A DNA stretch of 64,000 nt from Bryopsis sp. KO-2023 (Eukaryota; Chlorophyta; Ulvophyceae; Bryopsidales; Bryopsidaceae). Position numbers and translations under genes: made by a program. The notes below the pieces were generated by a model. That model was not told where the DNA came from. It searched no databases and saw only the letters and a list, made by a program, of their open reading frames with translations. The DNA lies in contig BSYQ01000003.1 in assembly GCA_030272585.1 (NCBI GenBank), forward strand, positions 4,030,001 through 4,094,000. Reading direction: 5' to 3'. This document shows, one piece after another, positions 22,595 through 27,030 of this stretch; position 1 is the first letter of the stretch, and each line of letters opens with the position of its first letter.

Positions 22595-23260
22595 TCACAT
22601 GCTGAGGCATCCCCCATAGAATCGCTTCTCATTTTCCCGCCACCAGCAAACCTCGTCAGTCTGAACAACATTGTCACCACAGGTTACGGCTCTCAGGATT
22701 TGGCCTATGGCATCCCCCAGCACGTTTCCCACGTCCTCGGCGGTCGGCAAACCCCTTGTAAGAGAGCTGAAGTCCAGGCATCCCTCGCTGTCCAGCGCTT
22801 GGCGCGAGGCCTGTTGCTCTGCCATCCTGACGGTTTCAAGGAGCGATGGCCCTCGAGCCTGCAACCAAGCGTCTGCGAGCCTCTCGCTGTCCCCGTCAAG
22901 CTGATTCCTGAGCGTATTCGATATGGCGTCGGTTACAAGACGACCCGTAGCATCCGCCTGCTCTTCCGGGGTCGTCGCACATTGTTCTGCTGCCACTCTG
23001 CTCTCCGAGATGGAAATCGCCACCGCTATAGAGAGTCCAGCAACGTCACTCGATGTCGTCAGCTGATCTTCTTCGCACAGCACGACAGTACTGAGCGCCA
23101 TAGAAACTGCCCCGGTCAGGACTTCGGCTGTTGCCGAAGTGGATTCACTTTCACCGCGGGCCATATCCAGGCAAGCCTGGACCTCGCTTGGGGCCTGGGC
23201 GGCCGCCACCCCAATAAGTATGCAGCAAGCCAGTAGTACTCGTTGATAGTAAGAAGCCAT
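22595..23260 (-). CDS. Secreted cysteine-containing protein, unknown family (copy A)
   Basis: A single exon of 221 residues. The start at 23260 is set by a clear signal peptide (MASYYQRVLLACCILIGVAAAQ). The mature part is rich in Ala, Ser, Glu and Thr, with seven scattered cysteines, no membrane segment and no lysine-rich stretches. It is clearly paralogous to the gene at 23526-24314: shared blocks are AVAI(S/A)ISESRV, AWL(Q/E)ARGP, GLPTA(E/T)D(V/L)G and FYGGCLS/FFGRCLS. It stops straight after the last shared cysteine and lacks about 40 C-terminal residues present in copy B. Being intronless is unusual beside genes with 5-16 exons. I do not recognise the family. An extracellular-matrix, scale or wall role would be a guess. 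Confidence 0.82.
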   Translation of the reverse strand: MASYYQRVLLACCILIGVAAAQAPSEVQACLDMARGESESTSATAEVLTGAVSMALSTVVLCEEDQLTTSSDVAGLSIAVAISISESRVAAEQCATTPEEQADATGRLVTDAISNTLRNQLDGDSERLADAWLQARGPSLLETVRMAEQQASRQALDSEGCLDFSSLTRGLPTAEDVGNVLGDAIGQILRAVTCGDNVVQTDEVCWWRENEKRFYGGCLSM

Positions 23261-23525
23261 TGTTGTTAGCAGTCGGTATTAGTGGAGCGATTTCGAAGGA
23301 AGTCGCGTTTTTCAAGTTGTTTGCTGGTGTCGAAAGAGTGAAACTGTACAATATCATTGCACATATCGCAGCGAAGCAACGAAAGAGTGTTCGTCTGTCT
23401 GCCATAAAGTATGCCTCACACGTGTGAAGATATTGGGACTGTCGAATCGAATCACGTGTCCCGAAAGCCACCAATAAAAAAGCTTGCTGCTGCAGAAGGA
23501 AGCATAAACTTGAAAAAACTGCTAG
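23261..23525. promoter_or_regulatory. Shared intergenic region of the divergent secreted pair
   Basis: 265 bp separate the two start codons. It contains a 10-bp palindrome CACACGTGTG at 23417-23426 and a second CACGTG core at 23453-23458 (G-box/E-box-like), followed by CCAATAAAAAA about 50 bp before the plus-strand ATG. A two-way promoter is inferred from position; the motif meaning is known from plant bZIP/bHLH sites, not tested here. Confidence 0.4.
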
Positions 23526-24314
23526 ATGGTTTCAACACGCTTCGAATTCGTTCTATTGGCCGTGGCTCTTCTGAGCGCCGTTGCAATTGGGCAAGAGCCT
23601 GGCGAGGATGTGGATGAGTGCCTGGCCACTGCGTTTGCGGAAACAGACCCTAACTCGGCAACAGCTGATGCTCTATCAAACGCTTTCGCAAACGCCCTCA
23701 GCAGGGTTGTACAGTGCGACGAGACTGAAACGGGGCCGGGAGAATCCTCAGGGATATCTGTGGCAGTTGCAATAGCAATCTCGGAAAGCAGGGTGGTCGG
23801 ACAGTCGTGCTCAGCCTTCGTTGAGTCGCAGGCGGATGTCACGAGTCGTTTCTTGACGGAAACGCTGTCTGAGGTACTTCGTGACGAAGTTGAAGGGGAC
23901 TCTGAAGTTCTGGCCACCGCCTGGCTTGAGGCTCGTGGCCCTGATATCACAGAAGCAGTGAGGGCAGCTGAGGTGGAGAGCGAGATATCAGCTTTCGACA
24001 GCAATGGATGCTTGAATTTGGTGGCGCTGTCTGGAGGACTGCCGACCGCAACAGATTTGGGAGAAATTCTGGTGGACGCCGTCAATCAGATCACTCGCGC
24101 CATCAATTGCCGCGACAACATTGTCGAAAGCGAGGATCCCTGCACATGGAATGAGCTACAGCGATCGTTCTTTGGTAGATGCTTGTCGACACAACAGGCG
24201 ATCTCGGAGGCGGACAGATGTCGGGAGCAATTCAGGTCCTGTCAGCGGTATCAACCAGACCAGAGAAGCCGACGTCAATGCTTGACCACGCTTCGCGACT
24301 GCCTGAGAGGTTGA
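23526..24314 (+). CDS. Secreted cysteine-containing protein, unknown family (copy B)
   Basis: A single exon of 262 residues with signal peptide MVSTRFEFVLLAVALLSAVAIG. The mature part matches copy A along its whole length. All seven conserved mature cysteines are kept, in contexts DECLA, VQCDE, QSCSA, NGCLN, INCRD, DPCTW and GRCLS. An added basic tail has four more cysteines (DRCREQFRSCQ and RQCLTTLRDC), a paired pattern suggesting a small disulfide-linked helical tail. Repetitive Ala-rich helices such as NSATADALSNAFANALS are visible. No enzyme motif or membrane anchor is seen. Function unknown. The paralogy and the signal peptide are direct observations; secretion is inferred. Confidence 0.84.
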   Translation: MVSTRFEFVLLAVALLSAVAIGQEPGEDVDECLATAFAETDPNSATADALSNAFANALSRVVQCDETETGPGESSGISVAVAIAISESRVVGQSCSAFVESQADVTSRFLTETLSEVLRDEVEGDSEVLATAWLEARGPDITEAVRAAEVESEISAFDSNGCLNLVALSGGLPTATDLGEILVDAVNQITRAINCRDNIVESEDPCTWNELQRSFFGRCLSTQQAISEADRCREQFRSCQRYQPDQRSRRQCLTTLRDCLRG

Positions 24315-25415: not shown

Positions 25416-27030
25416 CTAGAGCGGGTATGCAATTTTCACAGCATCCACACAAAGACCTTGGTCCCAGTCCAATGGATTGATGAACACAATCGAGTGTGCA
25501 TCCTCCAGTGTCTGTTCGCTACCCTTCAAAAAATCATCAACAGAAACCACCTTGAGATGAAGGTTGGCTCCATAATCTTTCGACACCGTCTTCAAATCCT
25601 GGATTTTCACTGGATTGAAGAGCCCCTACGCATGCACACAGAATCACTCAAATACCCGACATCAAGATGGGAGGCAAAATAATATGCATGAATGCACAAT
25701 TTGCTCCAATATGAAGGACCTCCCCCCTTCAGTCTGTCTCACCTTCTTTCCGAAAAGAGAAATCTGGAAGTCAGGAATTCCCCAAGACTCTTTAACCCAG
25801 AACTCCAACTCAGTGGCACCCTTGAATTTGGTGGCCCCTCCAACCATAGCAACGCCTCTCCTGGCGCTGACATTGGTGCACCATCCAGGACCCTTAGAGA
25901 AACCTTCCGCATTCAGGGGGACCCAAGGAATCAGGCCACCATCGGCGAACCCGTTCTTGAATTTCCCCTCATACACAGACAAAGTGTTCTTCTTCTCGAC
26001 CGGTGCAACCGGTGCTGGCTTTTTGGTCTTCTTGGCACCCTTGGCTGCTTTGACAGCCTTAGCTTTGGCTGCTGCTTTAGCTGCTTTAGCTTTGGCTCCT
26101 TTCTTTGCCTTTCCGCTGCTCTTGGTTTTCTTTGTTGGGTCGACGGAGGTGGAGAGCTCCGGGGTTTGGAGGGGGCTGGTCTTGTTGACATCATGATCGC
26201 AGCTGACCTTTCGGTATTTAAGTGCGATCACACCCCAGATCTGGCCTGAAAGCTGCAGTTCAATGAGAATTCGGTCAGATGGTTTCGTTCAATGCACCGG
26301 AGACTATTCATAGCCCAAAACAGATGGAGCCCTCAGAGAAAGACCACTCCACAGATTGATTTGCACTCACTCTTTCGAAGGCGTAACGAGACAAGTCAAA
26401 GTGGTCCATATCACCACAGCACCACTGGTGGTTGTGATCACATGGGCACGTGTCGATGATCTTGACGACGATGGACATATTGGGGTCTTTGCACACGTTG
26501 GGCATGCTCCTCTTCAATTCGCTTCCATATCGATCATACATGTCCATGGGGTGACACTTCACTTCGTAGCACTGCCTGTGGTGTCGCAGCGTGCGAATTA
26601 GTTCAGCGATTTTTGCCACACGGGGGGAAATCAATGTCGGAGAATACTAAATACGCGTCTGCTGTGACATACCCGCAGGACCCCTTGTGGTCGGGGTGGA
26701 CATCAGGCATGGCGGCGATATTCATTCCGAGTCCGACGTTTGGGTCCACTCCCCCATATCCACAGCTGCCGTGGTGGATAGCGTCGTAGAAAGTTGCACG
26801 ACCTAACCGCCAGTCCTCAGCTTTTCCTTGTCCGACAATCGTCGACGCAATGAAAAGCATCCACAGGAACGCGAAGCGCTACACAACAGAATATCCATGC
26901 GTCAAACGCAGCCCGAGTGGGAACGATCGCAGAGAAAGGCTTGGATCAACAAGACTGGCAACTGTGTCGAGCGAAAGTGCTGCAAGCTCACCGGCGCCGG
27001 CGACGCGATCTTCTGTTCGAAGCTCGCCAT
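25416..27030 (-). CDS. Expansin-like protein with Lys/Ala-rich linker and an unrecognised C-terminal domain
   Basis: Five exons in transcript order: 26992-27030, 26673-26878, 26371-26575, 25743-26252 and 25416-25625, 389 residues. The N-terminus has a hydrophobic signal (RFAFLWMLFIASTIVGQGKA). Expansin domain 1 follows, about residues 36-185: ATFYDAIHHGSCGYGG, GSCGQCYEVKC, IIDTCPCDHNHQWCCGDMDH with the HFDLS motif, and YRKVSC at its end. Next is a linker of about 55 residues built from Lys/Ala units (AKKGAKAKAAKAAAKAKAVK), like a histone H1 tail. The last 160 residues (from NTLSVYEGKFKNGF to VDAVKIAYPL) look like a beta-sandwich but do not clearly show CBM63, the usual expansin domain 2. Ordinary expansins are about 250 residues. 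Expansins loosen cellulose walls without hydrolysis; that role here is inferred from domain 1. Confidence 0.82.

Follow-up and report, generated by a model that had tools for sequence, protein, structure and literature searches.

What does a gene encode that carries an expansin-like domain, a Lys/Ala-rich segment recalling histone H1 and an unfamiliar C-terminal domain (CTD) in a single reading frame? The gene lies in a 64,000-nucleotide stretch of contig BSYQ01000003.1 of the green alga Bryopsis sp. KO-2023, here called the window, to which the coordinates of its features refer. It runs from 27030 to 25416 on the reverse strand, has five exons separated by four introns, all with GT-AG borders, and encodes 389 amino acids.

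26992..27030, reverse strand: exon 1, start codon and the N-terminal part of a signal-peptide-like start
26673..26878, reverse strand: exon 2, which contributes the hydrophobic part of the signal-peptide-like start (read by eye) and then begins domain 1
26371..26575, reverse strand: exon 3, domain 1 with the motifs CYEVKC, DTCPC and HFDLS
25743..26252, reverse strand: exon 4 (510 nt), covering the last part of domain 1, then the linker and 82 residues at the start of the CTD
25416..25625, reverse strand: exon 5, last 69 CTD residues and stop codon
26196..26818, reverse strand: expansin-type domain 1 (aa 34-169; PF03330 and PF22514), with introns inside
25989..26195, reverse strand: linker (aa 170-238), net charge +16, 20 Lys, no Arg; densest in Lys/Ala at 25989-26132
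25416..25988, reverse strand: CTD (aa 239-389), with one intron inside

The splice sites, the gene and the domain order described in an earlier note on this DNA held up, with GSCGQCYEV, HFDLS and YRKVSC all present in the protein. Exon 4 indeed joins the linker in frame to the end of domain 1 on one side and to the first half of the CTD on the other. The proposed layout stood but the lengths needed correction, to 69 residues for the linker (given as about 55) and 151 for the CTD (about 160). Residues 1-33 include a hydrophobic stretch and, read by eye, resemble a signal peptide, which suggests that the protein is probably secreted; the start region in exon 1 is similar to that of a paralogue (L060, MASF...). 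Our preferred reading, in which we place about even confidence, is of an expansin-related protein whose CTD binds and whose linker acts as a cationic tether.

Domain 1 matched two Pfam families above their cut-offs, PF03330 (E-value 1.5e-9, 38.4 bits, cut-off 28.8) and PF22514, the EXPB1 domain 1 (2.2e-6, 28.5 bits, cut-off 27), as anticipated from its motifs. A third Pfam match, to SLAIN (0.023), was under its cut-off and was regarded as chance. When the PDB was searched with the single domain 1 sequence, two weak matches were returned, both beta-expansins (0.016 and 0.55). A domain 1 profile from four paralogues returned six sequences at E up to 1, namely two beta-expansins (0.0003 and 0.0019), Phl p 1 (0.011), EXLX1 (0.056) and, lowest, a papain inhibitor (0.27) and a thioredoxin (0.48). 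The HFD motif is kept, and at the level of sequence these results identify domain 1 as an expansin-type double-psi beta-barrel. No match to domain 1 was seen in viral and prokaryote contigs by a short-pattern method, and its origin was not found.

Across the 91.1 Mb genome (28 contigs), domain 1 had 79 exon-level matches that cluster into 35 to 38 loci (at 5 kb or 2 kb), a few of which rest on a single weak match. Domain 1 genes are strongly multiplied on contigs C4, C8 and C14, with several near-identical copies on C14 and C4. In several paralogues a short tail follows domain 1, and one (L067, C6:172500-176000) has HLALS instead of HFDLS and has thus lost the conserved Asp.

The CTD behaved differently from domain 1 in the same kinds of search. 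Alone, the studied CTD matched no Pfam family at E up to 10, CBM63 included, and all seven aligned CTDs of the genome likewise matched none, the CBM families held in Pfam and PF01357 among them. The earlier statement that the CTD lacks the CBM63 pattern agrees with this result, from a test in which domain 1 was detected in the full-protein search and which had no PF01357 positive control. A PF01357 search of the genome contigs gave no match, but its controls were equally silent. In NCBIfam there was no match for two CTDs, one searched within the full protein and one from a paralogue. Against the PDB, the CTD sequence gave nothing credible (best 1.5, a designed repeat protein), and the four matches of a CTD profile (best 0.22, a tail tubular protein) were judged chance. 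Viral contigs, phages and, for a paralogue's CTD, prokaryote contigs also returned no match. It is possible that the CTD has a distant relation to a CBM family that lies below the sensitivity of HMMER. An AlphaFold model of exon 4 alone, from one sequence, had a mean pLDDT of 36.9, too low to inform on the fold. To the eye, the CTD alignment has a spacing of short hydrophobic strands that may suggest a beta-sandwich. We infer a carbohydrate-binding beta-sandwich that would take the place of CBM63, and the CTD would be a lineage-specific, probably carbohydrate-binding domain.

The CTD is unfamiliar to the databases searched, as had been noted, but it is not a one-off, being common to the alga's own expansin-type loci. 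Eight CTD loci were found in the genome, and seven of them follow a domain 1. The eighth (L053, C8:3080500-3085500) is a lone CTD fragment with no domain 1 detected in 5 kb; it resembles the CTD of L062 and is likely a relic of duplication. With the studied CTD as query, the copy at C15:904k was best (38% identity, 1.4e-14), followed by weaker relatives at C8:2981k (0.0035), C8:3082k (0.018), C7:855k (0.052) and C6:3778k (0.21). The C8:2981k CTD had firm links to C6:3778k, C7:855k and C6:173k (7.7e-16 to 3e-30), was tied at about 1e-4 to 1e-3 to C6:1889k and C15:904k, and scored the studied copy only at 0.095. The copy at C6:1889k (L062) has a frame break in the first half of its CTD. The seven CTDs aligned over 169 columns, 8 of them invariant, including 2 cysteines, and the intron within the CTD has the same position in all seven loci (by eye). 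As judged from their sequences, the CTDs of these seven loci are homologous.

Trees of domain 1 with 19 rows rejected a single clade of CTD-bearing genes (p-AU 0.00426), as did trees of 17 rows from which two long rows had been removed (p-AU 0.00196). The tree used 19 of 30 entries, with 11 near copies or incomplete sequences left out (L022, L023, L024, L027, L031, L034, L037, L039, L041, L046 and L057); L064 and L069 contain two genes each and contributed one row each. Since the CTD-bearing genes do not form one clade, the CTD is probably old and was lost several times, although some doubt is left because branches are long and many forks weak, 11 of 16 being open in the 19-row tree.

The studied copy is divergent within this family, which counts against the preferred reading. 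Its CTD has 2 cysteines, whereas none of the other six has fewer than 4, the missing pair being gone on both sides, and the end branch of its domain 1 measures 0.61 compared with a median of 0.15. Both features might mean that the gene is decaying, with a CTD that no longer folds, or the gene could be mis-modelled, with a transcript that lacks the linker; we consider this very improbable. The frame is intact through all five exons and their GT-AG introns, the common intron position is shared, and the motifs are retained. The two cysteines that the other six CTDs keep were lost jointly, which suggests one disulfide lost as a unit and not random decay. The second half of the CTD is shorter in the studied copy and in the C15 copy (L051) alike, hence its length is no sign of decay. 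As to mis-modelling, the linker-coding DNA contains no donor of the form GT[AG][ATG][GT], two of which occur elsewhere in exon 4.

The linker of this expansin-related protein is set apart by its charge. Its 69 residues include 15 Ala and 4 acidic residues besides the 20 Lys, and its net charge of +16 compares with -4 for domain 1 and -1 for the CTD, both near neutral. The longest stretch with at least 70% Lys plus Ala covers 48 residues (aa 191-238; 19 Lys and 15 Ala). Because homology flanking the linker on both sides fixes the frame, this tract is not a wrong-frame artefact. The earlier description of the linker as histone-H1-like held for its Lys/Ala composition and failed for the linker-histone domain, since PF00538 did not match at Pfam E up to 10; the one PF00538 match in the genome is elsewhere, at C4:5346920. 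A genome search with 65 linker residues at E up to 1, in which two candidates were scored, found the studied gene alone. An H1 origin of the linker was rejected on these two results, of which the linker search is a weak negative because low-complexity sequence is handled poorly. Neither a CBM63 match in the CTDs nor the Lys/Ala linker in a second gene, which together would have spoken against the layout first proposed, was seen in these searches.

The two domains are constant across the CTD-bearing paralogues and the linker varies, from 32 to 467 residues, as cut by eye from open frames, so that the short ones may be incomplete. Five of the six paralogue linkers are Pro-rich, 32-50 residues long and close to neutral (net charge -3 to +1), which argues that linker charge is not required by the architecture. 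In L051 (C15:903500-909500, reverse strand), a Ser/Thr/Pro/Lys-rich linker of about 467 residues with a net charge of +22 lies between domain 1 and the CTD and shares an open frame with domain 1 and the first half of the latter.

It is possible, if doubtful, that the Lys/Ala linker is a neutral low-complexity spacer produced by slippage of AAR-GCN codons, in which case domain 1 and the CTD would do the work and the charge would have no role. This is consistent with the imperfect tandem repeats of 27, 12 and 9 bp in the linker DNA and with the freedom with which the paralogue linkers differ in length and composition. The synonymous codons of the Lys/Ala stretch are mixed, however (11 AAG and 8 AAA; 7 GCA, 4 GCC and 4 GCT), which speaks against fresh expansion, and repeats that are short and imperfect beside mixed codons make a slippage origin plausible but not recent. 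The absence of Arg and the mere 4 acidic residues also keep the linker strongly cationic, and the far longer L051 linker is likewise net positive, both of which argue against a neutral spacer.

The alga is a bryopsidalean chlorophyte, a siphonous ulvophyte, and not a streptophyte: an LHCII exon of the genome is identical at 118 of 119 residues to the siphonaxanthin LHCII chain 8hlv (Bry-Lhcb1), whose source organism we take to be Bryopsis corticulans. The multi-repeat LHCI chain 9vfj ranked above 8hlv by summed score only. The chlorophyll a/b-binding family had 107 exon-level matches in the genome, a large light-harvesting set. In passages of PMC7550628, the walls of Bryopsidales are described as having fibrils of (1-3)-beta-xylan or (1-4)-beta-mannan with little cellulose, absent or very low uronic acids, and galactans that are both sulfated and pyruvylated; the galactan of Bryopsis plumosa is linear and 3-linked, with sulfate mainly at C-6 and partial pyruvylation. 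Pectin, proposed earlier as a linker target, is therefore unlikely and was set aside, and a sulfated, pyruvylated galactan would be a plausible acidic partner.

According to the preferred reading, the CTD, as a beta-sandwich in place of CBM63, would bring domain 1 to the wall fibrils, and the flexible polycationic linker would retain the protein by charge in the sulfated, pyruvylated galactan matrix. Domain 1 would then loosen contacts between fibril and matrix, either without cutting or by slow cutting. A more far-reaching and tentative proposal is that the CTD is the founder of a new CBM family that replaces CBM63 in siphonous green algae, combined in this gene with a polycationic tether. 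If true, the tether would fix a loosening domain of the expansin type to a gel of polyanions, and algae with (1-3)-beta-xylan or mannan and sulfated galactans in their walls would have a second way of targeting expansins, outside walls of cellulose and pectin.

The action of an expansin domain on walls like these bears on a live dispute over a catalytic role for expansin-like proteins (PMC13415917). Domain 1 may itself be an enzyme of the GH45/expansin fold that slowly cleaves a glycan, the alga's xylan, with the CTD as a putative substrate-binding module; we think this unlikely. The HFD motif is retained and the fibrils of the order are, in the same passages on Bryopsidales walls (PMC7550628), (1-3)-beta-xylans or (1-4)-beta-mannans, but the xylan of the published xylan work and the (1-3)-beta-xylan of the alga may differ in linkage.

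Next to the expansin gene lie two related open frames arranged head to head with each other, at 22595-23278 (reverse strand) and 23526-24314 (forward strand). They are 46% identical, have signal-peptide-like starts and gave no Pfam match at E up to 0.01. Contig C9 carries 8 of the 11 genome matches to this secreted-looking family.

Expansins were counted in PMC11547041 only if both domains were present, and among the five chlorophytes sampled there, two-domain expansins were reported, in the parts available, for two (Volvox and Coccomyxa), with domain 1 but not CBM63 in the other three. The main text of that survey, as far as available, makes no mention of Ulva, Bryopsis or Caulerpa; two Ulva species have one expansin each, as stated in an excerpt of PMC9266709. 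Surveys that require domain 1 plus CBM63 would miss the Bryopsis genes. Among the matches listed, titles and the starts of abstracts on expansins of Bryopsis, Bryopsidales or Ulvophyceae do not describe the layout, and neither do those listed on lysine-rich linkers together with expansin, none of which has the word expansin; the genes may already be catalogued in print. The genome of one siphonous alga contains 35 to 38 loci with domain 1, no CBM63 detected and a different second domain in seven, which makes it testable how an expansin domain acts on walls with mainly non-cellulose fibrils.

Domain 1 of canonical expansins was found in the studied protein and CBM63 was not, in a Pfam search without a PF01357 positive control, and its sequence would class it as an expansin-related protein. 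With histone H1 tails the linker shares Lys/Ala composition alone; unlike H1, the protein has no linker-histone globular domain, and its signal-peptide-like start points to secretion. The domain 1 region also matches the bacterial EXLX1-type expansins (NCBIfam NF041144) at 2.1e-8, at 33.7 bits against a cut-off of 100 and in two stretches, the better of which covers profile positions 48-99 of 194. Plant expansins carry the motifs GSCGYG, CYE.KC and HFD in domain 1, similar to those of the studied protein, and their two domains are linked by a short joint. With plant EXPA and EXPB the protein has in common a signal-peptide-like start, domain 1 and a two-domain plan, whereas the Bryopsis proteins have a long, variable linker and, with no CBM63 detected, a CTD of about 150-164 residues that matches no family. 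Single-domain expansin-like proteins and loosenins also have domain 1 without CBM63, and to this the studied protein adds a second conserved domain and a linker.
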